Shown here piece after piece: positions 7,758-26,117 of a stretch of 64,000 bases of DNA. Origin of the DNA: Sphingomonas natans (GTDB taxonomy: Bacteria > Pseudomonadota > Alphaproteobacteria > Sphingomonadales > Sphingomonadaceae); the NCBI RefSeq assembly GCF_030546695.1, contig NZ_JAUOTP010000001.1:620001-684000 (forward strand), written 5' to 3'. The notes under the pieces were generated by a model, which was not told the DNA's origin, searched no databases, and saw only the letters and a list, made by a program, of their open reading frames with translations. The position numbers and the translations under genes are program-made. Within the stretch, counting starts at the first letter, position 1. Every line of letters begins with the position of its first letter.

Positions 7758-7873
7758 TATAGTCCCCCGTAACAACAAGCGACCCCGGCCCGCTTGTGCG
7801 AACCGGAGTGGTTGAAGTCGTCTCTCGGGTTTCCCCGTCCGTTCGGCGCACCCTGGCCGATCGAAGGACGACC

Positions 7874-8046
7874 GCGACGGGCAGGTCTCCTGGCTTGCGG
7901 GTCGCCGCCCTCCTTGCCGCCTTCTCAGGGTCGAAACCCCAATGGCATGTGGCAAGGTGACTCACCGCTCACAGTTGCAGGGGCAGCCGGGGTCTCGAAC
8001 CCCGTTCCCTATTAATCTCCCTCGCGGGAAAACCTGTCGCGAAACG
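7874..8046 (-). promoter_or_regulatory. Cobalamin (adenosylcobalamin-class) riboswitch
   Basis: On the minus strand this leader carries the canonical elements in order: a GGGAACGGGG / CCCCGGCTGCCCCTGCAACTGTGAGCGG-type core (split here; near 7960-8015), a variable arm containing GCCACATGCCA, and the 3' B12-box AGCCAGGAGACCTGCC at about 7880-7895. It ends about 115 bases before the btuB start and so should control the six-gene btuB-to-cobS operon. The ends are approximate because I placed them by eye. Confidence 0.93.
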
Positions 8047-8894: not shown

Positions 8895-8916
8895 GCGTGC
8901 CTCCGCGAGTTGCAAT

Positions 8917-9912
8917 TCAGCCCAGCCCCTGCGTCCGCGCCCAGGCGAGGAACAGGTCGGGCCAAGCCTCGGCCGGCTTGCCCATCGCAAGCCGCAGCCC
9001 GAAGCCATGTCCGCCGGCCGTGAACAGATGCGTCTCGACCGGCACGCCGGCCTTCTTCAACGCCGCCCGATAAAGCAAGCTGTTCTCGACGGGCACCGCC
9101 GGATCGTCCTCGGCATGGACGAGGAAGGTGGGCGGCGTCTCGCGCGTGACATTGTTCGCGGGCGTGTGCGCCGCCTCCAGCGCGGGCGAAGCGTCCTTGC
9201 CGACCAGCAATTCGCGCGAGCCCGAATGCGCGATCGGCAGCGTCATCGATTGGACCGCATAGATCGGTGCGGACACATCGGGCCGCGCGCTCAGCCGGTC
9301 CGCCGCATCAACAGGCGCATAGACTTTCGAGCCGAAACGCGTCGAAAGGTCGCCGCAGACATGTCCGCCTGCGGAAAAGCCCATCGCCGCGATCCGCTCG
9401 GGCTGCAGCGCATAATCCCGCGCGCGATGCCGGATGATCCGCATCGCCCGCTGCGCATCGGCCAAAGCCACGTCCGGTCCCGCCGCCCAGCCGTCGCCCG
9501 GCAGGCGATAGAAGAGCACGAACACGATGAAGCCGCGCGCCGACAGCCAGCGCGCAATCTCATAGCCCTCCTTGTCGATCACGATGCGCGCATAGCCACC
9601 GCCGGGCGTGACCAGCACCGCCGATCCGTTCGGAATGCGCGGCCGGAACACGACGAGCCGCGGCCGGGTGACGCCCCGCACCGCGCGATCGGTGAGCGAG
9701 GCATCCTTGCTGCGCTCGTCGACCGTCTCCACCGGCGGCTTCGCCGGCATGCCCGGCGCGCCCTTCGGCCACAGATCGATCGTCTCGTCGGGCTCGGGCA
9801 GCCCGGCGGCAATATGACCGCCCGCGACGGACGGCGGCGGCGTCTGCGCCTCCGCGCTGGACGCCAGGCCCGTGATCGCAGCGGACAGGATCAGCGTGCG
9901 ACGGTCGATCAT
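8917..9912 (-). CDS. Exported alpha/beta hydrolase, probable carbohydrate acetylesterase
   Basis: A 331-aa alpha/beta-hydrolase. The N-terminus MIDRRTLILSAAITGLASSAEA is a signal peptide with an RR pair, possibly Tat-type. The oxyanion region is TPGGGYARI, the nucleophile elbow GFSAGGH, the acid HAEDDPAVP, and the histidine GGHGFGL. This resembles the acetyl-xylan/pectin acetylesterase-like hydrolases found in polysaccharide clusters. The start lies four bases after the kdgK stop, within the uronate operon, so deacetylation of pectic oligosaccharides is a reasonable inference; the substrate is not shown by the sequence. Confidence 0.8.
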   Translation of the reverse strand: MIDRRTLILSAAITGLASSAEAQTPPPSVAGGHIAAGLPEPDETIDLWPKGAPGMPAKPPVETVDERSKDASLTDRAVRGVTRPRLVVFRPRIPNGSAVLVTPGGGYARIVIDKEGYEIARWLSARGFIVFVLFYRLPGDGWAAGPDVALADAQRAMRIIRHRARDYALQPERIAAMGFSAGGHVCGDLSTRFGSKVYAPVDAADRLSARPDVSAPIYAVQSMTLPIAHSGSRELLVGKDASPALEAAHTPANNVTRETPPTFLVHAEDDPAVPVENSLLYRAALKKAGVPVETHLFTAGGHGFGLRLAMGKPAEAWPDLFLAWARTQGLG

Positions 9913-9916
9913 CGGC

Positions 9917-10924
9917 TCAGCGGCGCACGTCCAGCCCGCCGGCGAGGAAGGCATCGATATCGGCCTGACGGAACAAGGCGGCATCGCCGGGCAGCGAATG
10001 CTTGAGCGCTGTCAGCGCGAGCCCGACCTGCGCGGCCTTCGCGATATCGCCCCCCTGGCGCAGCGCGTGAAGCACGCCCGAAGCGAAGGCGTCGCCACCG
10101 CCGATCCGATCGACGATGCCCGCGAGCACGATCTCCTCGGTCTGGGCATGGCCCTCGCGCGAATCCAGCCGCGCCGACAGGCGATGCTGGTCGACCGTAT
10201 CGACGTGGCGCGCGGTCGAGGCGATGAGCTGGAGCTTCGGAAAAGCCTCGAACGCGGCATCCGCCGCCTTCTGCCGGCGATCCTCGCCATCGCCGCCGAA
10301 ATCGCGGCCCAGCAGCAGCGCGATGTCGCGATGATTGCCGAACAATATCTCGGCGCGCGACACGAGCTCCATCAAAATCTCGCGCGGCTTGGCGTCCCAG
10401 CGTTCCCACAGTTTCGCGCGATAATTGCCGTCGAACGAGATCGGGACATTGCGCGCCGACGCCGCCTCGGCGGCGATGATCGCGGCCTTGGCCGAGACCG
10501 GGCCGAGCGCGGGCGTGATGCCGGACAAATGCAGGCGATCGACGCCGTCGAGCAACGTATCCCAGTCCCACGCATCGGCGGGCGCCTCGGCGAAGGCCGA
10601 CCCGGCGCGATCGTAGATCACCTCGGTCGCGCGCATCCCCGCGCCCGACGTGACGAGATAGAGCCCCATCCGCTCGCCCGCGAGTTGGATCGCCTTCGTG
10701 TCGATCCCATGCCCGCGCAGCGTGCCGACCGCCGAACGCCCGAGATCATTGTCGGGCACGCGGCTGACGAAGCCGACATCATGCCCGAGCCGCGCGAGCG
10801 CGGTCGCGACATTGGCCTCCGCGCCTGCGACCCACACGTCCAGCTTGGGCGTCTGGAGCAGCATCTCGCGCCCCGGGGGCGAGAGGCGCAGCATGATCTC
10901 GCCGAAGGCGAGGAATTTAGCCAT
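9917..10924 (-). CDS. kdgK: 2-keto-3-deoxygluconate kinase
   Basis: A 335-aa PfkB/ribokinase-family sugar kinase that phosphorylates KDG to KDPG. N-terminal FLAFGEIMLRLSPPG and the C-terminal anion-hole/catalytic-base motif IGGGDAFASGVLHALR are clear. The substrate is assigned from the operon: KduD and UxaA both produce KDG and Eda consumes KDPG. The spacing of four bases to the downstream esterase indicates co-transcription. A REP-like palindrome fills the 156 bases between this gene and kduD. Confidence 0.92.
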   Translation of the reverse strand: MAKFLAFGEIMLRLSPPGREMLLQTPKLDVWVAGAEANVATALARLGHDVGFVSRVPDNDLGRSAVGTLRGHGIDTKAIQLAGERMGLYLVTSGAGMRATEVIYDRAGSAFAEAPADAWDWDTLLDGVDRLHLSGITPALGPVSAKAAIIAAEAASARNVPISFDGNYRAKLWERWDAKPREILMELVSRAEILFGNHRDIALLLGRDFGGDGEDRRQKAADAAFEAFPKLQLIASTARHVDTVDQHRLSARLDSREGHAQTEEIVLAGIVDRIGGGDAFASGVLHALRQGGDIAKAAQVGLALTALKHSLPGDAALFRQADIDAFLAGGLDVRR

Positions 10925-11080: not shown

Positions 11081-11836
11081 TCAGCGCCCCATCCACCCGC
11101 CGTCGACGGTCAGGATATGGCCCTGCACGTAGTCCGACGCCGGCGCCGACAGGAACACCGCCGCCCCGCCCAGATCCGACGCCGCACCCCAGCGCCCGGC
11201 CGGAATCCGCTCGAGGATCTGGCGGTTGCGCGTCTCGTCCGCGCGCAGCGCCTCGGTGTTGTTCGTCTCGATATAGCCCGGCGCGATGCCGTTGACGGTC
11301 ACGCCCTTGGCCGCCCACTCATTGGCGAGCAGCTTGGTCAGCCCCGCCACGCCCGATTTGGACGAGGTGTAGCTCGGCACGCGGATGCCGCCCTGGAAGC
11401 TCAGCAACGAGGCAATGTTGACGATCTTGCCATAGCCCTGCGCGATCATGTGCCGCCCCGCCGCCTGGCACAGGAAGAACACCGACTTCAGATTGGTGCC
11501 CATCACCACATCCCAATCGGCCTCGGTGAAATCCACCGAATCCGCGCGGCGGATGATGCCCGCATTGTTGATCAGAATGTGGAGCCCGCCGAGCTTCTCG
11601 ACCGCCTCGTCCACCACGCGCTGGACCGGCTCGATCGAGGAGAGGTCGGCCGAGACGATCTCGGCCTTCCGCCCCAGCGCGCGCGCTTTCTCCACCGTCT
11701 CGGTCGCGGGCGTGCGGCCGACCGCGGCGATGTCGGCGCCGGCTTCCGCCAGCGCCAGCGCGATCGCCTGGCCGATGCCCGTATTGGCGCCGGTGACGAT
11801 CGCCACCTTGCCCGACAGATCGAAGATGTTCGCCAT
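11081..11836 (-). CDS. kduD: 2-deoxy-D-gluconate 3-dehydrogenase / 2-keto-3-deoxygluconate oxidoreductase KduD
   Basis: A 251-aa short-chain dehydrogenase that reduces 2,5-diketo-3-deoxygluconate to KDG. Cofactor motif TGANTGIG near residue 15, NNAGI near residue 92, catalytic Ser in IASLLSF and Tyr/Lys in YTSSKSG, and the C-terminal VDGGWMGR typical of KduD. ATG 11836 begins MANIFDLSGKVAIVTG. It lies 14 bases after kduI, the isomerase that makes its substrate. Confidence 0.95.
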   Translation of the reverse strand: MANIFDLSGKVAIVTGANTGIGQAIALALAEAGADIAAVGRTPATETVEKARALGRKAEIVSADLSSIEPVQRVVDEAVEKLGGLHILINNAGIIRRADSVDFTEADWDVVMGTNLKSVFFLCQAAGRHMIAQGYGKIVNIASLLSFQGGIRVPSYTSSKSGVAGLTKLLANEWAAKGVTVNGIAPGYIETNNTEALRADETRNRQILERIPAGRWGAASDLGGAAVFLSAPASDYVQGHILTVDGGWMGR

Positions 11837-11850
11837 GCTGCCCGCTCCGC

Positions 11851-12693
11851 TTACTGGAGCTGGCAGATGTCGAGGACGTTCATGTCCGTATAATCGAGAT
11901 TCTCGCCGGCCATCGCCCAGATGAAGGCGTAGGACTTGGTGCCCGAACCCATGTGGATCGACCAGGGCGGCGAGATCACGGCTTCCTCGTTCTGCATGAC
12001 GATATGGCGGGTCGCCTCGCCCTCGCCCATGAAGTGCATCACGCGATCCTTGTCGAGATCGTCCAGCTCGAAGTAGAAATAGATCTCGCTGCGGCGCTCG
12101 TGGATGTGCGGCGGCATCGTGTTCCAGACCGAGCCTTCCTTCAGGACGGTCAGGCCCATCACCAGCTGCGCGCTCTCGCAGATGCCGGGGATGACGAGCT
12201 GGTAGATCGTCCGCTCGTTCGATTCCGCGAGGCTGCCGCGCTCCAGCTTGGTCGCCTGCTCGGTCGAGATCTTGCGCGTCGTGAACGCCTTGTGCGCGGG
12301 GCACGAGGCCAGATAGAAACGCGCGCCGTCGCCCGAGAACTGGACGTCCTTCGCGCCCATCGTCACGTAGAGCGTGTCCTTGTTGGCGAGCTCGAACGTC
12401 TCGCCGTCGACGGTGACGGTGCCGAGCACCTTGCCGACATTGACGACCGCGAGTTCGCGCCGCTCGAGGAAGGGATGGCCCGCCGCCGAGGCCGGCTCGG
12501 TCTGGTCGGGAAGCTTCACGCTGCCCGAGACCACAGCTACGCCGCCGATCACGAAGCGCTCGGCGTGCGTGTAATTGAGCACGACCTCGCCGTCGCGGAA
12601 CAGGCCCTGGATCAGGTAGCGATCGCGCAGCTCTTCATTGTTGACGCACTCCATCATGTCGGGGTGCGTGCCGTAATAGGTCTTGTCGAACAT
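11851..12693 (-). CDS. kduI: 5-dehydro-4-deoxy-D-glucuronate isomerase KduI
   Basis: A 280-aa cupin-fold isomerase that converts 5-keto-4-deoxyuronate, from unsaturated oligogalacturonides, to 2,5-diketo-3-deoxygluconate. Zinc-site residues lie in [18 protein letters not shown] and later [13 protein letters not shown]. The whole length matches the family (about 278-280 aa). ATG 12693 has GGAGA eight bases upstream. Presence of KduI with KduD shows the cell receives products of pectate or rhamnogalacturonan lyases, not only free galacturonate. Confidence 0.97.
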
Positions 12694-12716: not shown

Positions 12717-14159
12717 TCAGGCCGCGCGCGCGGCGGAAAGGGGCGTGTCGATGCGATAGGCCTTGCGGACGAGGCCGTTGGTCAGCTCGTGGGCCAGCTC
12801 GACCGCCTCCCAATCCTCGATCCGGTGCTCGGCGACAAGCCGGGCAAGGAAGCTGCAATCGACGCGGCGGGCGACATCGTGCCGCGCCGGGATCGAGAGG
12901 AAGGCGCGCGTATCGTCGTTGAAGCCGACCGTATTGTAGAAGCCGGCCGTCTCGGTCGTCGTCTCGCGGAAGCGGCGCATGCCCTCGGGGCTGTCGTGGA
13001 ACCACCAGGACGGGCCCAGCTTCAGGCACGGATAATGGCCCGCGAGCGGCGCCAGTTCGCGCGCATAGACGCTCTCGTCGAGCGTGAAGAGGATGATCGA
13101 CAGCTCGGTGCTCGTGCCGAAGCGATCGAGCAGCGGCTTGAGCGCGCGGACATAATCGGTGCGGCTCGGAATGTCGGCGCCCTTGTCGCGGCCGTGGCTC
13201 GCGAACAGGCCGGCATTGTGGTTGCGGAAGGCGCCCGGATGGATCTGCATGACCATCCCGTCCTCCACCGACATCGCCGCCATCTCGGTCAGCATCTGCG
13301 CGCGGAACAGCTCGGCATCGTCGAGCGTCCACGCGCCCTTCGTCACCTTCGCGAACAACGCCTCGGCCTCGACGGTCGAAAGATTGGCGGTCTGCGCGGT
13401 CGGGTGGCCGTGGTCGGTCGCGGTCGCGCCGGCGGCGCGGAAATCGGCGCGGCGCTTGCGGTGCGCAGCGAGATAGCCGGTCCAGCTATAGACGTCCTCG
13501 CCGGTCACTTCGGCGAAGGTCGCCATCGACGCGGCGAAATTCTCATGCTCGACGTCGATGACCGCATCGGGGCGATAGGTCGTGACGACGCGCCCGCCCC
13601 AGCCCGAGCGATGGATCCGATGATGCGCCGAGAGATCGTCCTGCGGTCCTTCGGTGGTCGCGAGGAAATCGATGCGGAAGCGATCGAACAGAGCGCGCGG
13701 GCGGAACGCCTCGCTCGCCAGCTTCTCGTTGATCGTGTCGAAATAGAGATCGGCGGTCGCGCCTTCCAGCGCCACGTCGATGCCGAACACGTCGGCGAAC
13801 ACATGGTCGAGCCACATGCGCGAAGGCGTGCCGCGGAACAGGCGATAATTGTCCGCGAACAGGCGCCACGCCTTGCGCGGGTCGGTCGCGGGCACGCCGC
13901 CACGATGCGGGATCGCCAGATCGTCGAGCGCGATGCCCTGGCTGTAGAGCATCCGGTACACATAATGATCGGGCGCGAGCAGCAGGGTGGTCGCGTCGGT
14001 CCAGTTCTGGTTGTCGGCGAACCAGGTCGGATCGGTGTGCCCGTGCGGGCTCACGATCGGCAGGCCGGATATTTCCGCATACAGGCTGCGCGCGATGCCG
14101 CGCATCGTCGGATCGCTCGGGAACAGCCGGTCCGGATTGAGCTCGAGTTGCCGTGCCAT
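12717..14159 (-). CDS. uxaC: Glucuronate/galacturonate isomerase UxaC
   Basis: A 480-aa member of the amidohydrolase-superfamily uronate isomerases, converting galacturonate to tagaturonate (and glucuronate to fructuronate). Motifs: [15 protein letters not shown] (metal-binding HGH), MRMWLDHVF-like region (here [14 protein letters not shown]), and a C-terminal [16 protein letters not shown] block. ATG 14159 has a strong AGGAGG. It is the first enzyme gene of the minus-strand operon; a copy of the putative operator (14201-14215) lies 42 bases upstream. Confidence 0.96.
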
Positions 14160-14200
14160 CTTGGTCCTCCTTGGGTACTCCGGGGGAGCAGGCGAGGCGC

Positions 14201-14215
14201 TGGTAAGCGGTGTCA
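14201..14215 (-). promoter_or_regulatory. Putative uronate-regulator operator, copy 1 (before uxaC)
   Basis: On the minus strand the 15-mer TGACACCGCTTACCA. It matches the sequences at 15336 and 18510 at 11-12 of 15 positions. It sits in the 82-base gap between the lacI stop and the uxaC start. Confidence 0.5.
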
Positions 14216-14241
14216 CGGCCCTATGCAACCGTGGATGGGCG

Positions 14242-15270
14242 TCAGTCGATCGGCGGCGCGACCGATCCACGCCGGATGAGCGTCGAGATGAACAGAGAGG
14301 GCTCCTCGACCAGTTCCTCTTCCTCCCCGACCCCCGAAATCAGCTTCAGCGCCGCCGAGCGGCCCATCGACACGGTCGGCCAGCGCACCGTCGTCAGCGG
14401 GGGCCAGACATGCGCAGCGACGGGCGTATCGTCGAAGCCGATGATCGAAAGATCGCGCGGGATATCGAGCCCGCGCGCGCGCGCCGCATGCATGACGCCC
14501 GCCGCCATCGTGTCGCTGGACGAGAAGATCGCGGTCGGCCTCGGGGTCAGATCCAGCAGGCGCTCTGCGGCGACGAGCCCGGATTCGAACGTATAGTCGC
14601 CACCCGCGATCAGGCTGCGCTGGAGCGGCAGGCCCGCCTCGCGCAAAGCATCCTCGAATCCCGCGCGCCGCTCGGTCGCGGAGCGGAAGCCCTGCGGCCC
14701 GGCGATCAGCCCGATCCGGCGATGCCCCTGCTCGATCAGATAGGCGACCGCGCCGCGCACCGCCTCGCGATCGTTCGACGCGACCATATGCGCGTCGTCG
14801 TCCAGCGAGACCGAGCACATCCGCACATAGCGGCAGCCGATCTCGCGGCAGAGCTGGACGATCGACTCATTCTCGCTGATCGGCGGCATCAGCAGCACGC
14901 CGAACAGGCGCTGCCGCTCGAGGAAATAGCGCAGATCGCTGAGCATGCTCTGCGCGCCGCGATTGAGCGGGCGGACGACAAGCTCGAACTCGGTGCCCTG
15001 CAGGCCCTCCAGCATCCCGCGCTGGACGTTCATCACAGTCTGCGCGTTCGGATTGTCGTGGACGAGGCCGACCAGATAATTGCGCCTCAGCGCGAGCGCG
15101 CGCGCCTGCGGATTGGGAATATAGCCGATATCGGCGATGACCGTCTCCACGCGCAGCCGCGTGTCCCCGTTGAGCAGGGGGGACTTGTTGATGACGCGGC
15201 TGACCGTCTTCTTCGAGACGCCCGCGATCCGCGCCACGTCGTTGATCGTCGGCTGCCCCGTTTTCTGCAT
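14242..15270 (-). CDS. LacI-family transcriptional regulator of the uronate island
   Basis: A 342-aa repressor. The LacI helix-turn-helix spans about residues 8-32 (TINDVARIAGVSKKTVSRVI), then the hinge region with NPQARALALRR, then a periplasmic-binding-protein-like effector domain containing LIAGPQGFRSATERRAGF and IIGFDDTPVA. The alternative upstream ATG at 15285 adds five residues. It is divergent from uxaA and lies ahead of uxaC, so it is the likely local regulator; the effector (KDG or a uronate) is not shown by sequence. Confidence 0.92.
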   Translation of the reverse strand: MQKTGQPTINDVARIAGVSKKTVSRVINKSPLLNGDTRLRVETVIADIGYIPNPQARALALRRNYLVGLVHDNPNAQTVMNVQRGMLEGLQGTEFELVVRPLNRGAQSMLSDLRYFLERQRLFGVLLMPPISENESIVQLCREIGCRYVRMCSVSLDDDAHMVASNDREAVRGAVAYLIEQGHRRIGLIAGPQGFRSATERRAGFEDALREAGLPLQRSLIAGGDYTFESGLVAAERLLDLTPRPTAIFSSSDTMAAGVMHAARARGLDIPRDLSIIGFDDTPVAAHVWPPLTTVRWPTVSMGRSAALKLISGVGEEEELVEEPSLFISTLIRRGSVAPPID

Positions 15271-15378: not shown

Positions 15379-16860
15379 GTGCCCGAAGCGATCCGTATCC
15401 ATCCCGCTGACGATGTCGCGACGATGCTGGCGGACGTTGCCGCAGGCGAGACCGTGACGCTGCCCGGCCTGGAACTGACGGCGCTCGACGCGGTCGCGCG
15501 CGGCCACAAGATCGCGCTCCGGCCGATCACCGAGGGCGAGGCGATCCGCAAGTTCGGCGCGCCGATCGGGCATGCAACGGCGGCGATCGCGCCAGGCCAG
15601 CATGTCCATTCGCATAACCTGCACACGGGCCTGACCGGCACGCTCGATTATCGCTTCGAAGCGGGCGCGCCGCCGCCGCCGGAGCCCAACGGGCAGCGCG
15701 GCTTTCTCGGCTATCGCCGTCCAGACGGCCGCGTCGGCACGCGCAACGAGATCTGGATCCTGCCGACGGTCGGCTGCGTCGCGCGCACCTCTCAGCGCAT
15801 CGCCGAGAAATCGGCCGCACTCGCCGAGGGCAAGGTCGATGGCGTCCACGCCTTCAGTCACCAGTTCGGCTGCTCGCAATTGGGCGACGATCTCGCCGGC
15901 ACGCGCCACGTGCTCGCCAGCCTCGCATGTCATCCCAATGCGGGCGGCGTGCTGATCGTCGGCCTCGGCTGCGAAGAGAATCAGATCGATCAGTTGCTGG
16001 CGGACGTGCCCGAATGGCGCCGCCCGTTCATCCGCACCGTCACCTCGCAATTCGCCGAGGACGAGACGGCCGACGGCATCGCCAAGGTCGCCGAGCTGAT
16101 CGAGATCGCCGCGCAGGCGAAGCGCGAGATGGTCGGGCTGGAAGCGCTCGTGCTCGGCGTGAAGTGCGGTGGATCGGACGGGCTCTCGGGGCTGACCGCC
16201 AACCCGCTCGTCGGGCGGATGAGCGATCGCGTCGCCGAGGCCGGCGGTAGCGTGATCCTGACCGAAATCCCCGAAATCTTCGGCGCCGAGCATCTGCTGA
16301 TGCAGCGCGCTTTGGGCGCCGAGGCGTTCGATCGCATCGGCGAGCTCGTCAACCGCTTCAAGCAGGGCTTCATCGATATCGGCGAGCCGGTCTCCGAGAA
16401 CCCCTCCCCCGGCAATGTCGCCGGCGGGATCACGACGCTGGAGGAGAAATCGCTCGGCGCGGTCCAGAAGGGCGGCCACGCGACCGTCGTCGACGTGATC
16501 GATTATGGCGCGCGCATCAGCCGCCACGGCCTGACTTTGCTGGAGGCGCCCGGCAACGATGCCGTGTCCTCGACCGCGCTCGCCGCGGCAGGCGCGACCG
16601 TGATCCTGTTCACCACCGGGCGGGGCACGCCGCTCGGCTTTCCCGTGCCGACCGTGAAGATCGCGTCGAACAGCGCGCTGGCCGCGCGCAAGCCCGGCTG
16701 GATCGATTTCGATGCGGGCGCGGTGCTGGAGCAGGGCTTCCCCGCGACCGAGGAAGCGATGCTCGATCATATCCGCGACATCGCCTCGGGCGCCGAGACC
16801 AAGGCCGAGATCAACGGCGAGCGTGAAATCGCCATCTGGAAGCGAGGCGTTACGCTGTGA
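15379..16860 (+). CDS. uxaA: Altronate dehydratase UxaA
   Basis: A 493-aa dehydratase that converts altronate to KDG. The N-terminal SAF-like domain ends near HSHNLHTG, and the main domain begins GFLGYRRPDGRVGTRNEIWI, with HQFGCSQLGDD and VLGVKCGGSDGLSG further on. No ATG fits the N-terminus; GTG 15379 gives VPEAIRIHPADD, with AAGG upstream, and a normal family length of about 495 aa. It starts the plus-strand half of the uronate island. Confidence 0.96.
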   Translation: MPEAIRIHPADDVATMLADVAAGETVTLPGLELTALDAVARGHKIALRPITEGEAIRKFGAPIGHATAAIAPGQHVHSHNLHTGLTGTLDYRFEAGAPPPPEPNGQRGFLGYRRPDGRVGTRNEIWILPTVGCVARTSQRIAEKSAALAEGKVDGVHAFSHQFGCSQLGDDLAGTRHVLASLACHPNAGGVLIVGLGCEENQIDQLLADVPEWRRPFIRTVTSQFAEDETADGIAKVAELIEIAAQAKREMVGLEALVLGVKCGGSDGLSGLTANPLVGRMSDRVAEAGGSVILTEIPEIFGAEHLLMQRALGAEAFDRIGELVNRFKQGFIDIGEPVSENPSPGNVAGGITTLEEKSLGAVQKGGHATVVDVIDYGARISRHGLTLLEAPGNDAVSSTALAAAGATVILFTTGRGTPLGFPVPTVKIASNSALAARKPGWIDFDAGAVLEQGFPATEEAMLDHIRDIASGAETKAEINGEREIAIWKRGVTL

Positions 16861-16993: not shown

Positions 16994-18472
16994 GTGCCTG
17001 TCATCAAATCAAACTGTGAGCCTGTCGCTTTGAACCGCCTCAACGCCCGCCAATTGGCTGACCTGCCTTCCACGATCACCGCCCCGGGCCATGCGATGCC
17101 GAGCAAGACCGGCATCGTCCATTTCGGCCCCGGCGCGTTCCACCGCGCGCATCAGGCGGCCTATATCGATACGGTCCTCGATCACGATCCGCGCTGGGGC
17201 ATTGCCGCGGTATCGCTGCGCACGCGCGGCACGATCGCCGCGCTGGAAGAGCAGGCCGGCGCCTATACGATCGGCATCCGCGATGCCGCGCCCGGCTGGC
17301 GCGTGATCGCCGCGCACAACCGCTTCCTCGCCTCGGACGACGCCGCCGAGACCGCGGCCTTGCTCGCCTCGCCCGATGTCGGCCTCGTCACCACGACCGT
17401 GACCGAGAAGGGCTATTGCCTCGCCCCGGACGGCACGCTCGACGCCAACCACCCGGATATCGTCCACGACATCTCCGGCGCGCCCACGCCGCGCAGCGTG
17501 ATCGGCTGGATGGTTTCCGGCCTCGCCGCGAGGCGCGCTGCGCGGATCGCACCGTTCGTGCCGATGCCGTGCGACAATCTCGCCAATAACGGCGCCAAGC
17601 TTCATGCCGCACTCGCGGCCTTCGCCCGCCTGCGCGACCCCGAGCTCGCGCGCTGGATCGAGGGCGAGGTGCGCGTACCGGGGACGATGGTCGATTCGAT
17701 CACTCCCGCTTCCGACACCGCCTTCCTCGACATGGCTGAGGCCGCGCTCGGCCGGCGCGACGACGCCGCCGTCCAGCGCGAGACCTTCGTCCAGTGGGTG
17801 ATCGAGGATATCGGCCGCCCGCTCGGCCCCGATCTCGGTGGCGCGGGCGCGACGATCACGAACGACGTCGCCGGCTATGAGAATGCCAAGCTGCGCCTGC
17901 TCAACGGGCCGCATTCGACGCTGGCCTATGTCGGGCTGCTGCGCGGCCATGCGAGCGTCGCAGAGGCGATGGGCGATGCCGCGCTCGCCACCTTCGTCGA
18001 GGCGATGATGAAGGACGAGATCGCGCCGATGCTGCGGCAGGTGCCCGGCCTCGATCTCGGCGCCTATATCGCCGCAGTGCTCGGCCGCTTCCGCAATCCC
18101 GCGATCATCCACAAGCTGGAGCAGATCGCGATGGATGGCTCGCAGAAGCTTCCTTACCGGCTCGTTGATACGCTCGCCGAGGCGCGTAGGCGCGGGCTGA
18201 TGCCAGCGCGGATCGTCGCGGCGCTCGGCTGCTGGATCACCTTCGCGATGCAGCGCGCGCGCACCGGCACGACGATCGTCGACCCGCTCGGCACGACGAT
18301 CGCCGCCGCCGCGGCCGACGGCGATGCCGGGACCGTCCTCGCCCGCCTGCTCGACGCAGGCATCCTCCTGCCTCCCGAGCTTGCCCGCGACGAGGCGCTC
18401 GTCGCCGCGATCGCCGGCGCGGCGGACGCGGCTTTCGCCGGAAATTGGGACAGGATAGGCTTGGCCCGATGA
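16994..18472 (+). CDS. uxaB: Tagaturonate/fructuronate reductase (mannitol dehydrogenase family)
   Basis: A long-chain mannitol-dehydrogenase-family NAD-dependent reductase of up to 492 aa. N-terminal dinucleotide region GIVHFGPGAFHRAHQAAYID; catalytic block NAKLRLLNGPHSTLAYVG with the Lys/Asn/His set typical of the family. With UxaC and UxaA beside it, reduction of tagaturonate to altronate is the expected role; sequence alone does not separate it from fructuronate reductase UxuB. The start is uncertain: GTG 16994 abuts the palindrome, while TTG 17030 (LNRLNARQLADLP) fits the family N-terminus better and gives 480 aa. Confidence 0.85.
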   Translation: MPVIKSNCEPVALNRLNARQLADLPSTITAPGHAMPSKTGIVHFGPGAFHRAHQAAYIDTVLDHDPRWGIAAVSLRTRGTIAALEEQAGAYTIGIRDAAPGWRVIAAHNRFLASDDAAETAALLASPDVGLVTTTVTEKGYCLAPDGTLDANHPDIVHDISGAPTPRSVIGWMVSGLAARRAARIAPFVPMPCDNLANNGAKLHAALAAFARLRDPELARWIEGEVRVPGTMVDSITPASDTAFLDMAEAALGRRDDAAVQRETFVQWVIEDIGRPLGPDLGGAGATITNDVAGYENAKLRLLNGPHSTLAYVGLLRGHASVAEAMGDAALATFVEAMMKDEIAPMLRQVPGLDLGAYIAAVLGRFRNPAIIHKLEQIAMDGSQKLPYRLVDTLAEARRRGLMPARIVAALGCWITFAMQRARTGTTIVDPLGTTIAAAAADGDAGTVLARLLDAGILLPPELARDEALVAAIAGAADAAFAGNWDRIGLAR

Positions 18473-18563: not shown

Positions 18564-19358
18564 TTGACGTCCGACACCGGCAGCCAGAATCTAAGCCAGA
18601 TCGCGCACGCCTTCGTGACCGCGCGCAAGTCCCGCACCGCGCTTCTCACCTATCCGGGCACCATTCCGGCGAGCATCGCCGAGGCTTATGAGGTTCAGGA
18701 CCAGGCGATCGCGCTTTATGGCGACGAGGTCGGCGGCTGGAAGGTCGGCCGCATCAATCCCCCCGTCGATGGCGTGAACCGCCTCGCCGGCCCGATCTTC
18801 ACCGACGTCATCTTCGACGAGACGCCCGCGCCGATCGCGATGCCCGTCTTCGGCGAGGGCTTCGCCGCCGCCGAAGCCGAGTTCCTGCTGCGCATCGGCA
18901 CCGCGCCAGATCCCGCCAAGACGAGCTACACGATCGAAGAGGCGGCAACGCTGCTCGATGCGGTGCATATCGGCATCGAGATCGCCAGCTCGCCTTATCC
19001 GGGGATCAACGCCGACGGCCCGCTCGTCACCATCTCCGATTTCGGCAACAACAACGGCCTCGTCATCGGCGCCGAAATCCCGAACTGGCGCGATCGCGAT
19101 CTCAACGCCTGGATCGTCGAACTCGACATCAATGGCGAGCCGATCGGCAGCAAGACCGCCGCCGAAATGCTCGACGGCCCGATCGGCGCCGCGCGATTCC
19201 TCTTCGAGGTGATGGCGAAGCGTGGCATCGCGCTGACGCCGGGGCAGTGGATCTCGAGCGGCGCGGTCACCGGCGTCCATCCGGTCGCGGTGGGCGATGC
19301 GGTCGAGGTGCGGTTCGACCGCCGGCTCGTGACCAGCTGCACGATCACCGCGCTCTAA
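18564..19358 (+). CDS. Fumarylacetoacetate hydrolase-family protein (2-keto-4-pentenoate hydratase-like)
   Basis: A 264-aa protein of the FAH/MhpD superfamily. Recognised by GGWKVGRINPP, AAEAEFLLRIG (metal-ligand glutamates), AVHIGIEIASSPYP, ISDFGNNNGLVIG and the final WISSGAVTGVHPVAVGDAVEVRF. Its place between the uronate reductase and the hexuronate transporter suggests action on a 2-keto-deoxy acid of the pathway, but the substrate is not determined. The start is TTG 18564 with GAGG upstream; no ATG is suitable. Confidence 0.85.
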   Translation: MTSDTGSQNLSQIAHAFVTARKSRTALLTYPGTIPASIAEAYEVQDQAIALYGDEVGGWKVGRINPPVDGVNRLAGPIFTDVIFDETPAPIAMPVFGEGFAAAEAEFLLRIGTAPDPAKTSYTIEEAATLLDAVHIGIEIASSPYPGINADGPLVTISDFGNNNGLVIGAEIPNWRDRDLNAWIVELDINGEPIGSKTAAEMLDGPIGAARFLFEVMAKRGIALTPGQWISSGAVTGVHPVAVGDAVEVRFDRRLVTSCTITAL

Positions 19359-19379: not shown

Positions 19380-20666
19380 ATGGCCACAGAAGCAGCGCCG
19401 GAGGTCATCGCCGCCGCCGAGCGGGTCGGCAAATATCGCTGGGTGATCTGCGGGCTGCTCTTCGCGGCGACCGCGATCAACTATGTCGATCGCCAGATGA
19501 TCGGGCTCCTGAAGCCGACCATTTCGGCCGAGCTCGGCTGGAACGAGACGACCTATGCCGACATCGTCTTCTGGTTCCAGGCGGCCTACTCGATCGGCTA
19601 TCTGAGCTTCGGCAAGATCGTCGACATGGTCGGCGCGCGGATCGGCTATTCGGTCGCCTTCCTGATCTGGACGCTCGGCCACACGCTCTGCGGCTTCGTC
19701 GGCAACGCCTTTCAATTCTCGCTCGCCCGCGCCGTGCTGGGTCTCGGCGAATCGGGCAATTTCCCCTCGGGCATCAAGGCGACGACCGAGTGGTTCCCTG
19801 CGCGCGAGCGCGCGCTCGCCACGGGCATCTTCAACGCCGGCGCCAATGTCGGCGCGATCGTCGCGCCCTTGCTCGTGCCCTTGCTGACAGCCCTCTACGG
19901 CTGGCGCATGGCGTTCGTCGTCACCGGCGCGGGTAGCCTCGTCTGGCTGATCGCCTGGATCGCCATCTATCGCCGCCCGCGCGAGACGAAGGCGCTCACC
20001 GCCGGCGAACTGGCCTATATCGAGAGCGATCCCGCCGATTCCTCCGAGAAGATCGGCTGGCTGCGGCTGCTGCGCTATCGCGAGACCTGGGCGTTCGCGC
20101 TCGGCAAGTTCCTGACCGATCCGATCTGGTGGCTGTTCCTGTTCTGGACGCCCGATTTCCTCGCCAAGACCTATCATCTCGATCTGCTGAGCTTCGGCCC
20201 GCCGCTGGTCGTCATCTATCTGATTTCGGACATGGGCAGCGTCGCGGGCGGCTTCGCCTCGTCGAAGATGATGCAGCGTGGCCTCTCCGCCAACGTCGCG
20301 CGCAAGCTGACGATGCTCGCCTGCGCCTTCCTGATCATGCCGATCTTCTTCATCCAATATGTGAGCGGGCTGTGGCAGGCGGTCGCGATCCTCGGCCTCG
20401 TCACTGCCGCGCACCAGGCCTTCTCCGCCAATATCTACACGATCCCATCGGACATGTTCCCGCGCAACGCGGTCGGCTCGGTCATCGGCATCGGCGGCAC
20501 GTTGGGCGGGATCGGCGGCATGTGCATGGCCAAGTTCGTCGGTTACGTACTGGATACGACGGGCAGCTACACGCCGATCTTCGCGGTCGCGGGCAGCGTC
20601 TATCTGATCGCGATCCTCGTCATCCACCTCCTCTCGCCGCGCCTCGCGAGGGTCGACCGGATCTGA
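19380..20666 (+). CDS. MFS hexuronate transporter (anion:cation symporter family, ExuT-like)
   Basis: A 428-aa inner-membrane permease with about 12 helices. Family signatures: INYVDRQMIGLLKPTI after the first helix, LGLGESGNFPSGIKATTEWFPARERALATGIFNAGANVGAIVAP (split here as the ACS-family loop 4-5), and DFLAKTYHLDLLSFGPP in the second half. These resemble ExuT and related hexuronate carriers. ATG 19380 has GGGAGAGG upstream. It is the likely entry route for galacturonate or short uronates in this island. Confidence 0.9.
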   Translation: MATEAAPEVIAAAERVGKYRWVICGLLFAATAINYVDRQMIGLLKPTISAELGWNETTYADIVFWFQAAYSIGYLSFGKIVDMVGARIGYSVAFLIWTLGHTLCGFVGNAFQFSLARAVLGLGESGNFPSGIKATTEWFPARERALATGIFNAGANVGAIVAPLLVPLLTALYGWRMAFVVTGAGSLVWLIAWIAIYRRPRETKALTAGELAYIESDPADSSEKIGWLRLLRYRETWAFALGKFLTDPIWWLFLFWTPDFLAKTYHLDLLSFGPPLVVIYLISDMGSVAGGFASSKMMQRGLSANVARKLTMLACAFLIMPIFFIQYVSGLWQAVAILGLVTAAHQAFSANIYTIPSDMFPRNAVGSVIGIGGTLGGIGGMCMAKFVGYVLDTTGSYTPIFAVAGSVYLIAILVIHLLSPRLARVDRI

Positions 20667-20716: not shown

Positions 20717-23700
20717 GTGCAGACCCGCGCCGCCTCGTTGCTGAAACTCGGCATCCTATCGCTGAGCCTCGCTGGCCTCGTCCCGGCGGCGGCAGCGCCG
20801 GACGCGACGGGCCTCCTCTTCCGCCTCTCCGCCGACAAGGATCTCGTCGCCGATGTCGCGACGGGCGACGCCCAGCCCAATTTCCTGAGCGGCGTCACGA
20901 TCACACCCGATGGCGCGATCGGCAGCGCGGTGCGCTGGCCCGACGACGGCTATGTCGCGTGGAAGGCGCCCGGCAACATGGCGGCGCAGCGTGGCACGCT
21001 CTCCTTCTTCTGGCGCGCACGCCAGCCGGTCGGCGAGACGCCGTTCGTATTGTTCCGCACCGGCTTCGCCGATCATACGAGCTGGGACATGGCGTTCCTG
21101 CGGATCGACTGGAATGGCCACGGCTTCGACGCCTTCGTCACCGACGCCAATCTGTCGCGCGTCCGCGTCTCGTGGACAATCCCCACCCCGCCGACGCCCG
21201 AGGCGTGGCACCATCTCGCCTTCGCCTGGGACGAGACGGTCGGCGTCCGCCTGTTCTGGGACGGCAAGCTCGTCGCCTCGAAGCTGCAGAAGGCCGATCT
21301 CGACAGCGGTCTCGATCAGTTCGGGCTCGCCGCGCGGATCATGTCGCCGCACCAGGTGCAGAGCCGCTACAGCTTCATGCGCGGCAGCGATTTCGACGAG
21401 ATCCGCGTCTACGATCACATGCTGGCGACAGGCGACGTCGCCGCGCTCGCCGCGAAGGGCGATCCCGCTCCCGCCTCTGCCCTGTCCGACAGCGCCGCGC
21501 GCCAGCTAGCGTGGCTGCACCGCTACGGCTGGGACAAGGCCTCGCCCCCCGTCCTCGCCGATCCGGTCACGCGCGTCCGCAAGGTCGAGTTCGCCGACGC
21601 GAAGGATCTGAAGGCATGGATGTGGAAGGGCGTCGACGGCATCCCGGAGACGACCTGGCCCGGCGTCTATAATCGCTCGCGCCTGCCCGGCCGCGACGAT
21701 TATTTCGAGCTGCCCGACTGGAACACCTATGTCGAGGGCGGCAAGACCTACGACCTGACCTTGCCCACCGGCGAGGCGTTCAACCGCGTCGAGATACGCG
21801 GCGCGGCCTATGGCGATCTCGCCTGGTCGGCGGACGGCACGCGCTATGCGAGCCTCGCCAAACGCCCGCAGGGCGTGGTCCGCTCGGTCATGGATCTCAC
21901 CGAGCGCACCGGCGGCAAGCTGCGCTTCACGAACGTGATGCAGGAGCAGCCGATCCAGGAGATCTGGGCCTATGACATAGGCGCGGGCAAGGAGCCCGAA
22001 GGCACGTTCAAGCTCAGCTACAAGATCGATGCCTCGGCTGCGCCCGATCTTGCGGTACTGACCGATCTCAACGCCTTCATCGCGAGCCGCTACGCCCCCG
22101 ACGAGCGCAGCACATTGCTTGCCATGCCGATCGGCGGTGCGCGCGCCGCGGTCGGCGCGGGCGATGCCGCCGCGGCGGGCGCCGCCGTCCGCCCCAAGGG
22201 CCTCGCCCCGATCGTCCATATCCTGATTCCGGCCGGCTTCGGCGAGGCGCCGCCCGGGCGCCCGTTCGCACGCGCCTGGGCCTATGGCTGGCAGAACATC
22301 CATGACGGGCTTGACGGCATCGCCATCGACATTCCCGCGCTGAAGCTCAAGCCGCGTCCCGACGGGCTGATCCCGCTCAACATCAAGGTCAAGGATCCGA
22401 TCTGGCCGGGCCGCGACATGATCGATCTCTCGGTCTCGGTTCGCCCGAACGAAAAGCGCACGCTCTGGCTCGATCTGCGCGATCGCATCCTGTCCAATGA
22501 CAGCCTCTATCTGACGATGGCCTCCGCCGCGCCCGACTTCGACGCGCAGGCGCTCGACGGGGCGGCGATCCGGCTCGTGTTCAAGGATCGCGCCGCCGCG
22601 CTCGAGGAGCATGTCGCCGACCGGCTCAATCAGGTGAAGGACAATTGGGCCTTCCTCGTCGAGGAACATACGACCTCGAAGCGCGCGGGCCTCTACCAGC
22701 GTCTCTATGCCGACACGACCGATCTGCTGCGCGTCGATCCCGACAATCTGGAGGGCCGCGCTTACTGGGCGGACATCAATTACACGCCCGCCAACCTGCC
22801 GCCGGTTACCCTCCCCGCCATCCCGGCCGGCGTGCCTGCCTGGGCCGCGCGCCAGCTCCAGGATCTCGCCGCGACGCGCCGCTTCGTCGATTGGTGGATC
22901 GACGAGCGGCAGGTGCCTTATGGCGATTTCGGCGGGGGCATATCCGACGATGATGATCTGACCGGCCAGTGGCCGGGGCTCGCTCTGATGGGAGTCCAGC
23001 CCGACAAGATCAACGCCTCGCTGCGCGCGCTGACCGAGGCCTCGTATCGCAACGGCATGCACACCAACGGGCTCGGCACGATCGAGACCGACGAGCTGCA
23101 CACCTATGAGGAAGGGCTCAACGCGGACGCTGAGCGGCTTTATCTGAACTGGGGCGAGCCCGTGGCCCTCGAGCGGCTGATGGCGACGGCCAGGGCGCTG
23201 CACCGCGTCGCGCTCGTCAACCCGGCCGGGCATCTTCATCTCGCCAGCAGCTGGTATGGCGGGCGCCAGATCCACCGCGACGATCCCTGGTCGTGGCAGA
23301 AGCCCTATGGCTTCCTGATCCTCCACGCGCCGACCCTGCTCGGCCTCTACAACGGCAATCCGGATGCGCGTGGGCTCGTCACCGGGCTGATGGATGGCTG
23401 GATCGCGCACGGCAAGCAGGCCGCCGATGGCATCTGGTCCTTCCCGAACGAGATCAACTTTTATTCGGACAAGGAGCGTGTCGGCGACGGCGGCGGTGCC
23501 ACGACGGTGCTGCAGCCCGCCTGGGCCGCCTATCGCTTCACGGGCGACGCCAAATATCTGCGCCCGATTCTCGGCCGCGTGGCCAAGGCCGGCCCGTCGG
23601 CGCTCGCCGAGTTCAACGAGAATAGCTTCGATGTGCTCCCGGAGGGGCCAGCTTGGCGCAAGGCGCTTGCAGGCAAGGCCGGCACCGATTCCTTCTCGCG

Positions 23701-24538
23701 CTATGCCGCCTGGGCGCAGACCGGCGATCTCGCCCCGCTCGCCGCGCTCCACACGGATTCCTTGCGCGACAAGATGCAGCATGAGGCGATGCTGACGACC
23801 GGCCATTGGTGGTCCGATCGCGTCGATTCACCGAGCGACATTCTCCAGCGCGAGCGGCTCGGCGGCGTCGCGCTCCGGCGCGGCCTGTTCTGGCCGGGTA
23901 ACACCGTCAGCTGGCGCTTCGCCGATTCCGCAGCCGCCGAGCAGGTTGCGATCCTCGTCCCCGGCGCGACGCCCGATCGCTTCCGCGTCATCGCGTACAA
24001 CACCAGCGCGGTGCCGCAGCGCGCGACGATGACCGGATGGAGCGTCACCGCCGGCCGCTGGACGATGAAGGCCGCGACGAGCATCGACGAGGGCAAGACG
24101 CTGGCCTCGTCCGCCCCTGACACTCAGGTCACGCTGGAGCGCGGCGCGGGCGTCGAGGTGAGCTTCGCACCGAACACCACCACCGTCCTCGATTTCGCGC
24201 TGGCCACGCCGACGACACCCGCCGCGGACCGCGCCGATCTCGGCATCGGTACGGACGACGTGGTCCGGCGCGGCCGCGCTGTCGCGGTGACGGTCCACAG
24301 CCTCGGCGCGCACGACGCGGTCGGCGGCACGGCCGAACTGGTTGGCGCGGATGGCAGCGTACTGGCGACGGCTACCGTCCCCACGCTCGCCGCCCCGCTC
24401 GATCTGACGCCAAAGACGGCGGCCATCCGGCTGACGCTCCCCGCCGGCATCGCGCCCACCTCGGTCCGCGTCCGCCTTCGGCTTCCGAACAACGCGCCGG
24501 AAGTGACCTATCTCAACAACGAGATCCCGCTCCGGTGA
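20717..24538 (+). CDS. Large exported LamG-domain protein, putative novel pectin-active enzyme
   Basis: A 1273-aa protein starting at GTG 20717 (GGAGA nine bases upstream). Signal peptide about residues 1-27. A concanavalin/LamG-like jelly roll about 30-235 (GTLSFFWRARQPVGE, AWHHLAFAWDE, FDEIRVYD). A beta-rich middle region to about 700. A helical region about 705-1090, with paired-helix character and conserved-looking acidic/aromatic stretches (WWIDERQVPYGDFGGG, then DDDDLTGQWPG; later DELHTYEEGLNADAERLY and HLASSWYGGRQIHRDDPWSW), suggests an (alpha/alpha) toroid like several lyases and hydrolases. A C-terminal CARDB/Ig-like beta domain follows. I cannot name a CAZy family. The position after the hexuronate transporter suggests action on a uronate-containing polysaccharide. 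Confidence 0.8.
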   Translation: MQTRAASLLKLGILSLSLAGLVPAAAAPDATGLLFRLSADKDLVADVATGDAQPNFLSGVTITPDGAIGSAVRWPDDGYVAWKAPGNMAAQRGTLSFFWRARQPVGETPFVLFRTGFADHTSWDMAFLRIDWNGHGFDAFVTDANLSRVRVSWTIPTPPTPEAWHHLAFAWDETVGVRLFWDGKLVASKLQKADLDSGLDQFGLAARIMSPHQVQSRYSFMRGSDFDEIRVYDHMLATGDVAALAAKGDPAPASALSDSAARQLAWLHRYGWDKASPPVLADPVTRVRKVEFADAKDLKAWMWKGVDGIPETTWPGVYNRSRLPGRDDYFELPDWNTYVEGGKTYDLTLPTGEAFNRVEIRGAAYGDLAWSADGTRYASLAKRPQGVVRSVMDLTERTGGKLRFTNVMQEQPIQEIWAYDIGAGKEPEGTFKLSYKIDASAAPDLAVLTDLNAFIASRYAPDERSTLLAMPIGGARAAVGAGDAAAAGAAVRPKGLAPIVHILIPAGFGEAPPGRPFARAWAYGWQNIHDGLDGIAIDIPALKLKPRPDGLIPLNIKVKDPIWPGRDMIDLSVSVRPNEKRTLWLDLRDRILSNDSLYLTMASAAPDFDAQALDGAAIRLVFKDRAAALEEHVADRLNQVKDNWAFLVEEHTTSKRAGLYQRLYADTTDLLRVDPDNLEGRAYWADINYTPANLPPVTLPAIPAGVPAWAARQLQDLAATRRFVDWWIDERQVPYGDFGGGISDDDDLTGQWPGLALMGVQPDKINASLRALTEASYRNGMHTNGLGTIETDELHTYEEGLNADAERLYLNWGEPVALERLMATARALHRVALVNPAGHLHLASSWYGGRQIHRDDPWSWQKPYGFLILHAPTLLGLYNGNPDARGLVTGLMDGWIAHGKQAADGIWSFPNEINFYSDKERVGDGGGATTVLQPAWAAYRFTGDAKYLRPILGRVAKAGPSALAEFNENSFDVLPEGPAWRKALAGKAGTDSFSRYAAWAQTGDLAPLAALHTDSLRDKMQHEAMLTTGHWWSDRVDSPSDILQRERLGGVALRRGLFWPGNTVSWRFADSAAAEQVAILVPGATPDRFRVIAYNTSAVPQRATMTGWSVTAGRWTMKAATSIDEGKTLASSAPDTQVTLERGAGVEVSFAPNTTTVLDFALATPTTPAADRADLGIGTDDVVRRGRAVAVTVHSLGAHDAVGGTAELVGADGSVLATATVPTLAAPLDLTPKTAAIRLTLPAGIAPTSVRVRLRLPNNAPEVTYLNNEIPLR

Positions 24539-25722
24539 TCCTCGGCCGCCGCACCCTGATCGCTGGCGCGGCAGCCACCGCGTTCGCCGCGCGCCTGCCC
24601 GCCGCCGGCTCTGCCGACGCGGAGGCGACGGCCGCGCTCGACGCCGCCGCCGCCGAGAAGGATCCCGCCAAGGCGCTTGCCTTGCTGCGCAGCATTTCGA
24701 GGAAGGGCCTCAGCCGCGCCCGCGCGCTCGATCTTGAGGCCGCGCGCGCCGGGCTCGCGATCGATGTCGCTCTGGCCGATGCCACCGCCGCCACGCGCTA
24801 TACGCTGCAACTCCAGCGCGCGATCGGCAGCGATCTCGATCCCGCGCGCGCGCGGGCGCGGCTGGAGGCGGAACTGCAGCGGCTCCACGCCCGCGCCGCG
24901 CCGCTTTTCGCCCGCCTGGGAGACACGTCGGGCGACATCGGCGCGCGCTACAGCCGCCTGTGGCGCGACGAGCGCTATCTCTATGCAGACGACGAAGCCG
25001 GCCGCGCCCGCGCCGTCGCCGACATGAACGCGACGCTAGCCGGGATGCGCGATCGCCTCCCCCTCGCGTTCGCGGGCCTGCCCCCGTGGTGCGCGAACGT
25101 CTCGACGCGCGCGCTCAATCCTGCCGAGATCGCCGCGGGCAAGAACGGCTACCGCGCGCCGCCCACCGCCGATGCGCCCGGCCTCTACATCGTCGATCTG
25201 AAGGACATACGGCGCCGCCCGAGCTGGACGCTGCCGAGCGTCGTCGCGCACGAATTGCTGCCCGGGCATATGGTCCAGCTGCCGCTCGCCGCGCCGCACC
25301 CGCTCCGCCAGCGCTACACCGTCAATTATCCGGAAGGCTGGGCGATCTATGCCGAGCAGCTCGCCGCCAGCGAAGGCGCGTTCGCGGCCGATCCGCGGGT
25401 CGAGCTCGGCCATATCCATTGGCTGCTGTTCCGCGTCGGCCGCGCGCTCGTCGATCTCGGCATCCACCGGTCGGGCTGGTCGATCGAGGCCGCGCGCGCG
25501 AAGCTCGTCGCGTGGCAGGGCGAGCCAGCCTATTTCGCGCCCTTCGATCCCGATCTCGCGCGCACCGCGAAGGAGCCCGCCGGCTGGGCCTCGCATGCCT
25601 TGATCTGGCTCGCCCTCGCCGATCGCGCGCCGCGCACCGGCTCGCGCAAGCGCTTCCACGCGAGCGTCTTAGTCGATGGCCCGCTGCGCACCGAGAATAT
25701 TGGCGCTAGGATGCGCGCATGA
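24535..25722 (+). CDS. DUF885-family putative metallopeptidase, short form
   Basis: A 395-aa exported protein starting GTG 24535, overlapping the LamG stop (GTGA). The N-terminus MILGRRTLIAGAAATAFAARLPAAG has an RR pair like a Tat signal. The DUF885 metal site is visible: HELLPGH at residues 239-245 and the downstream glutamate in EGWAIYAEQL (Glu267). DUF885 proteins are usually near 600 aa, so this copy is shorter, apparently in the N-terminal half. Coupling to a polysaccharide-island gene is unusual for a peptidase-like protein. Substrate unknown. Confidence 0.8.
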   Translation: MILGRRTLIAGAAATAFAARLPAAGSADAEATAALDAAAAEKDPAKALALLRSISRKGLSRARALDLEAARAGLAIDVALADATAATRYTLQLQRAIGSDLDPARARARLEAELQRLHARAAPLFARLGDTSGDIGARYSRLWRDERYLYADDEAGRARAVADMNATLAGMRDRLPLAFAGLPPWCANVSTRALNPAEIAAGKNGYRAPPTADAPGLYIVDLKDIRRRPSWTLPSVVAHELLPGHMVQLPLAAPHPLRQRYTVNYPEGWAIYAEQLAASEGAFAADPRVELGHIHWLLFRVGRALVDLGIHRSGWSIEAARAKLVAWQGEPAYFAPFDPDLARTAKEPAGWASHALIWLALADRAPRTGSRKRFHASVLVDGPLRTENIGARMRA

Positions 25723-26117
25723 TCGAACGCATCGGCCACATCAACATCAAGACCCCGCTCTTCGCGGAGACCTGCGCCTTCTACGAGGCGTTGTTCGATC
25801 TGCGCCGCGTGCCCGCGCTGACGATGGCCGATCAGGAGCGCAATGCCTGGCTTGCCACCGCCGAGGGGCAGCCCGTCATCCACGTCAACACCGGCGAAAC
25901 GCCCGCCCCGAGCGGCCCGGCGCGGCTCGATCATGTCGCGTTCGAATGCCGCGATGTGGCGGCGATGCGCGCGCGCCTCGACGCGCTCGGCGTCCCCCAC
26001 GTCCACGCCGTCTCGCGCGTGCCGACGCTCGAGCAGGTGTTCTTCACCGACCTCAACGGGATCCGGATCGAGCTGACCTTCGATACGGCAAACATCCCCC
26101 AATCCCGTTCGTCCTGA
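25719..26117 (+). CDS. VOC (glyoxalase/dioxygenase fold) family protein
   Basis: A 132-aa protein with the paired beta-alpha-beta modules of the vicinal-oxygen-chelate fold: MIERIGHINIKTP (first metal histidine), RLDHVAFECRDVAAMRARL (second), and a final FFTDLNGIRIELTF with the terminal glutamate. The ATG overlaps the DUF885 stop (ATGA). It ends the plus-strand uronate transcription unit. The reaction is not indicated; glyoxalase-like or lyase activity on a small acid is possible. Confidence 0.85.
   Translation: MIERIGHINIKTPLFAETCAFYEALFDLRRVPALTMADQERNAWLATAEGQPVIHVNTGETPAPSGPARLDHVAFECRDVAAMRARLDALGVPHVHAVSRVPTLEQVFFTDLNGIRIELTFDTANIPQSRSS

Follow-up and report, generated by a model that had tools for sequence, protein, structure and literature searches.

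A LamG protein with a predicted six-hairpin barrel beside uronate genes in Sphingomonas natans

The LamG gene and its product

We analyzed a 64,000-nucleotide stretch of Sphingomonas natans DNA (the window; contig NZ_JAUOTP010000001.1, positions 620,001 to 684,000), in which a gene for a large protein with a LamG domain, here called the LamG protein, lies in an island of uronate-catabolic genes. The initial annotation had pointed to this open reading frame (ORF) as a candidate pectin-active enzyme, and its start, a motif like a ribosome-binding site and its relatives confirm that it is a real gene. Translation starts at a GTG (20717) with GGAGAG 7 bases upstream, and the TGA stop (24536-24538) has a 4-bp overlap with the next GTG start, that of a DUF885 gene. 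The parts of the gene and its product are as follows.

20717..24538, + strand: LamG / six-hairpin protein, 1273 aa (Pfam, relatives, AlphaFold2 models)
20717..20797, + strand: signal-peptide-like N terminus, residues 1-27 (judged by eye from the translation)
20945..21439, + strand: Laminin_G_3 domain, residues 77-241 (Pfam E 2.1e-8)
21572..21979, + strand: discoidin/CBM32-like jelly roll, residues about 286-421 (fold likeness to CBM32/pectin-binding modules)
21617..21736, + strand: jelly-roll loop, residues 301-340 (conservation high, model confidence low)
22838..23860, + strand: (alpha/alpha)6 barrel, residues 708-1048, putative catalytic domain (structure model, conservation)
23906..24529, + strand: C-terminal beta region, residues about 1064-1271 (DSSP of the larger model)

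The signal peptide, LamG jelly roll, long helical domain and C-terminal beta domain that had been read from the sequence were all borne out: the N terminus looks like a signal peptide, the Laminin_G_3 match scores 34.9 bits and exceeds the Pfam cut-off of 27.6, and AlphaFold2 gives an (alpha/alpha)6 barrel followed by a beta region. The CBM32-like jelly roll (CBM, carbohydrate-binding module) is a second one in the protein and had been overlooked; it gave no F5_8 match in the Pfam scan of the LamG protein. As compared to CBM32 and pectin-binding modules (2jda, AlyQ CBM32), it has an extra, highly conserved loop at residues 301-340. Within this loop residues 311-330 are the top-conserved block of the modelled part, with 98% mean identity and 16 of 20 positions invariant. 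The predicted local distance difference test score (pLDDT) of the loop is 27-33 in the larger AlphaFold2 model, which was built without the LamG domain to limit its length. Possibly, the loop packs on LamG or reaches the barrel.

Barrel fold, candidate active site and family membership

The AlphaFold2 model of the barrel domain reached a pLDDT of 88.8 and a predicted TM-score (pTM) of 0.89, and the larger model a pLDDT of 85.4. The initial annotation had suggested a comparison with (alpha/alpha) lyases and glycoside hydrolases (GH). The domain is predicted as an (alpha/alpha)6 barrel, and the closest folds, among the 50 matches listed, were GH88 and GH76 (tied), followed by GH47, GH105 and epimerases. 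No polysaccharide lyase (PL), GH9 or glucuronyl C5-epimerase stood among these 50, which is an absence rather than an exclusion. At E<=0.001 a Foldseek search with the larger model listed 11 entries; most were complement C3b, and as their TM-scores were near 0.1 they were taken as spurious.

The helical domain, in which paired acids had been noticed earlier, holds acidic clusters at a fitting place, and as catalytic groups they are candidates. In an alignment of 70 rows every sequence has D792, E793 and E798, and 99% have E799; D744, D745 and D747 are invariant too, and so are His795, Tyr797, Asn802 and Arg1035 in the barrel. The catalytic acids of GH76 and of UGL were taken from PDB titles among the fold matches, and by linear interpolation of the aligned ranges, which is coarse, GH76 D136/D137, D125 and D163/D164 and UGL D88 map to residues 790-802. 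By the same coarse mapping UGL Asp88 falls on residue 793, within the acidic cluster, and the Glu-Glu at 798-799 lies near the catalytic Asp-Asp pair of GH76. We take UGL D149 to be the second catalytic Asp of that enzyme, and the helix position of the GH76 pair is likewise our assumption. The sequence SDDTD may resemble the GH9 motif DAGD.

The domain has 42 invariant polar residues. The 78 positions round the inner-helix N termini hold 14 of them, and the 78 round the N termini of the outer helices hold 7. Comparing 14 in 78 with 28 in 336 gives a Fisher p of 0.013, although this is description more than test, since the helices and the span round them were assigned after the model had been viewed. 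Such an invariant polar pattern is what the pocket of a six-hairpin enzyme should look like, as far as a linear and coarse mapping can tell.

Apart from its LamG part, the protein matched no named family in the libraries searched. Laminin_G_3 was the sole match in a Pfam scan at E<=1, NCBIfam gave none at E<=1 and a PDB sequence search none at E<=10. Three family alignments searched against PDB gave chance-level matches, apart from the LamG-type 4qvs (E 0.00089), and a Pfam scan of 70 barrel-domain members hit nine scattered families with a best E of 0.021. Neither the window protein nor the 70 domain members matched PF07470 (GH88/105) or PF03663 (GH76) at E<=1. When aligned by hhalign to the five GH88/105 members of the own genome the probability was 0.5%, with both profiles shallow (number of effective sequences, Neff, 2.0 and 2.7), and of 120 genomes searched for GH76 genes only 4 gave matches, over the cut-off in 2, which is too few for a profile. 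These searches lend no support to membership in GH88/105 or GH76. The LamG protein shares with the GH88/GH105 unsaturated uronyl hydrolases a predicted (alpha/alpha)6 barrel, a similar length and the uronate pathway, but it has extra LamG and jelly-roll modules and no Glyco_hydro_88 match. The GH76 endo-alpha-1,6-mannanases tie for the nearest barrel fold, yet no Pfam GH76 match and no mannan genes among the scanned neighbours were found. A new six-hairpin family, set apart from the sequences in Pfam, NCBIfam and PDB, is the likely interpretation. No published description of the protein was found in a title-level literature search, most subscription journals being outside its scope.

The uronate island and the context of the relatives

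The LamG gene lies directly 3' of a hexuronate-type transporter gene, as first described, in an island with the following genes (MFS, major facilitator superfamily; KDPG, 2-keto-3-deoxy-6-phosphogluconate; VOC, vicinal oxygen chelate).

5769..7955, - strand: TonB-dependent receptor, island edge (domain scan)
8280..9008, - strand: KDPG aldolase (TIGR01182 226 bits, over cut-off)
8917..9984, - strand: PaeX-like pectin acetylesterase (NF041902 314 bits, below the cut-off of 550)
9917..10924, - strand: 2-keto-3-deoxygluconate (KDG)-type sugar kinase (NF041332 204.6 bits, below cut-off)
11081..12304, - strand: KduD, residues 157-407 of the ORF (TIGR01832 394 bits, over cut-off)
11851..12693, start approximate, - strand: KduI (NF002091 376.9 bits, over cut-off)
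12717..14270, - strand: uronate isomerase UxaC (NF002794 562 bits, over cut-off)
14242..15252, - strand: LacI-family regulator (domain scans)
15397..16860, start approximate, + strand: altronate/galactarate dehydratase type, GarD (TIGR03248 249 bits, below cut-off)
16994..18472, + strand: fructuronate/tagaturonate reductase type, UxuB/UxaB (Pfam Mannitol_dh; NCBIfam below cut-off)
18564..19358, + strand: 2-keto-4-pentenoate hydratase-like protein (TIGR03218 E 2.6e-11, below cut-off; no Pfam match)
19380..20666, + strand: MFS transporter, hexuronate/galactonate type (Pfam MFS_1; TIGR00893, the nearest NCBIfam model, 252 bits, below the cut-off of 395)
24535..25722, + strand: DUF885 gene (Pfam PF05960 E 1.2e-47, profile positions 159-522 of 532)
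25719..26117, + strand: short ORF, 132 aa, VOC/glyoxalase-like by eye (no NCBIfam match)

The dehydratase at 15397..16860 is presumably the one that would carry the label UxaA. KduI and KduD, which the initial annotation had placed in the island, both exceed their NCBIfam cut-offs. Its further claim, that the island has no recognised pectinase, stands in part: own-genome matches to PF07470, PF00544, PF00295, PF09492, PF14583, PF18370 and PF22842 place no GH88/105, PL1, GH28, PL10, PL22, rhamnogalacturonan I (RG-I) lyase or PL9-like gene in the window, but a PaeX-like pectin acetylesterase is present. At the LamG gene itself the pectin lyase models (PF00544, PF22842, PF09492, PF18370, PF14583) had no match. 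Upstream of the island, at window positions 143-4863, lie cobalamin biosynthesis genes (CobD/CbiB, CobB/CobQ-like, CobS and a DBI_PRT phosphoribosyltransferase).

Relatives of the LamG protein were found in Sphingomonas, Novosphingobium, Nitrospirillum, Xanthomonas, Stenotrophomonas and some alphaproteobacterial metagenome-assembled genomes. The spread is patchy. Counting the own genome, the barrel-domain profile was found in 6 of 398 Pseudomonadota genomes, with this family alone detected, and the family in 7 of 98 near-relative genomes; the whole-protein search found 8 of the 398, two by the LamG part alone. The most distant full-length relative seen has 44.5% identity over the barrel, and beyond it there are chance matches only. 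Three plasmid records hold relatives, to which a domain search at E<=10 adds only five Pantoea rows at E 7. Judged by its sequence, the LamG/six-hairpin family appears to stand apart from others.

Genomic context was counted in the best 80, near-full-length, of 238 relatives in GTDB genome contigs, a selection that is not random and in which several loci are cut by contig ends; the neighbours were called mechanically as ORFs, with base composition as the guide, and part of them were scanned. The window protein was aligned with 68 (A1) or 69 (A2) of the 80 loci, the omitted rows being mostly close relatives of kept ones. At least one uronate-catabolic gene lies within about 10 kb in 59 of the 80 loci, and at least two in 42. 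DUF885 is found near the LamG gene in 46 loci, a hydratase-like gene in 44 and an MFS gene in 42. In Xanthomonadaceae, all 16 loci have a KDG-type kinase along with one type of TonB receptor; a PL10 pectate lyase occurs in 7 and CE8 in 6. The tree splits Xanthomonadaceae (15 rows) from the sphingomonads, so that the association is seen again in a second clade, with other partners. A Novosphingobium plasmid relative also lies with kduD, kduI, an MFS gene and a GH43 gene. The suggested role in uronate or pectin use is thereby strengthened, as its context recurs in two separate clades; that the protein must be the missing maker of unsaturated uronides is not supported, as set out below.

In locus L078 a kinase gene is followed by two TonB receptors, pectinesterase, PL10 and the LamG gene. 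In the part of the work of Blanvillain et al covered here, the polygalacturonate-induced receptor gene XCC0120 of X. campestris precedes genes for pectin methylesterase and pectate lyase, and of the strains compared that one alone seems to have the XCC0120-XCC0122 locus (PMC1790865). A TonB receptor upstream of pectin methylesterase/pectate lyase is thus shared between this CUT locus and L078 with five other Xanthomonas loci. The same part of that account names XCC0120-XCC0122 only and does not mention a LamG gene (PMC1790865). We infer that the LamG gene would be XCC0123 in X. campestris, a locus tag of which the literature search found no mention.

Xanthomonas sp. AmX2 (L080:15329-16330) has a 5'-truncated second copy of the 3' part of the gene, with 43% identity to the window protein, downstream of the full gene, and L073 has a shorter remnant. 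In Novosphingobium (L053:13804-14499 and L091:18732-19415) a small LamG-only gene lies directly 3' of the large one.

Proposed function of the LamG protein

We propose, at what we judge to be an even chance, that the LamG protein is a secreted multidomain glycoside hydrolase, of a family new to the libraries searched, that acts on uronic-acid, most likely pectic, glycans. The protein would probably be periplasmic or located at the cell surface, where LamG and the CBM32-like module would bind plant glycan. Cleavage would be the task of the six-hairpin barrel, on an oligo- or polysaccharide that contains uronic acid and is most likely pectic. The cleavage pocket would be formed by the N-terminal ends of the inner helices, and the acidic clusters D792/E793/E798/E799 and D744/D745/D747 are the candidates for its catalytic groups. 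The MFS transporter of the adjoining upstream gene may then take up the uronic acids set free, and their conversion would fall to UxaC, the reductase, the dehydratase, KduI/KduD, the KDG-type kinase and the KDPG aldolase. More tentatively, and with clearly less confidence, the protein could found a new CAZy family, a six-hairpin glycosidase of sphingomonads and Xanthomonadaceae with an active site completed by the nearly invariant loop of the CBM32-like module and by LamG, cutting a pectic uronic linkage left by GH28, GH105 and PL enzymes.

Several observations weigh against a uronic-acid substrate and would fit an enzyme on a non-uronic plant or microbial glycan, to which the uronate neighbourhood is loosely linked. 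Of the 80 loci 21 showed no uronate gene, and in 14 of these the visible stretch measured 21.9 kb or more. In five of those 14 (L013, L038, L046, L053, L054) some neighbours were scanned, and TonB receptors, peptidases, permeases, chemotaxis genes and an alpha-L-fucosidase were seen; the neighbours in L046 include an ILVD/EDD dehydratase and an aldehyde dehydrogenase. Two of the three plasmid relatives are in other contexts, one in Sphingomonas near alpha-galactosidase and GH68 genes and one in Asticcacaulis among mixed neighbours, about 12 kb from a GH28-related gene. The same is true of the own-genome paralog (50%; L110/L111, C7), which stands among TonB receptors and beta-lactamase-fold hydrolases: it lies between one gene of each kind, with a small LamG protein nearby, and the gene adjoining the paralog in L002 is a TonB receptor. 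The nearest folds also include the mannan-active GH76 and GH47. However, the association with uronate genes recurs in two clades and PL10 and CE8 are among the neighbours, and we regard a non-uronic substrate as unlikely.

Unlikely, too, is the polysaccharide lyase of the initial annotation, which was to make the missing unsaturated uronides for KduI and KduD. The presence of both genes in the island is in line with a lyase, and the invariant His795, Tyr797, Asn802 and Arg1035 could serve beta-elimination. Models for PL1, PL9-like, PL10 and RG-I lyase had no match anywhere in the own genome, so that with the models tried no classical endo-pectate lyase was found. However, outside the window the own genome has GH88/105 matches at five places and GH28 matches at several, and two of its genes are PL22-like (oligogalacturonate lyase) with scores over the cut-off. 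A rhamnogalacturonan-type locus about 500 kb away (L125/L126, own genome C5, about 113000-134000) has GH28, GH35, GH106, GH88 with DUF4861, and a PL22-like gene. Because of the GH88/105, GH28 and PL22-like genes unsaturated uronides can arise without the LamG protein, and the argument from a missing maker is weak and was rejected; the PL22-like and GH88/105 genes can feed the Kdu branch. In E. coli, moreover, KduI and KduD respond also to galacturonate and glucuronate (PMC3578941). The fold matches listed hold no lyase, and in 7 of the 16 Xanthomonadaceae loci the LamG gene stands beside PL10 and not in its place. Hydrolase chemistry is therefore favoured over lyase chemistry, on account of the fold and of the position beside PL10 in part of Xanthomonadaceae.

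A glycan-binding or scaffold protein whose barrel has lost its activity would agree with the two binding-type modules and with a jelly-roll loop conserved above the barrel, LamG being strongly conserved too (by eye), but the barrel has fourteen polar residues that are invariant round the N termini of its inner helices, and acids lie close to where related folds have their catalytic position, which makes this improbable. A uronate or sugar epimerase is the most doubtful of all, as the size, the secretion-type start and the binding modules suit a polymer, and epimerase rows score below GH88 and GH76 in the fold comparison.

The LamG protein is conserved, lacks a named family and is encoded beside uronate genes in sphingomonads and beside pectate lyase or TonB receptor genes in Xanthomonas; it may thus supply a step so far missing from the pectin use of these plant-associated bacteria. 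Should it prove active, a CAZyme family would start with it, and it would serve as a tool to cut a pectic linkage.

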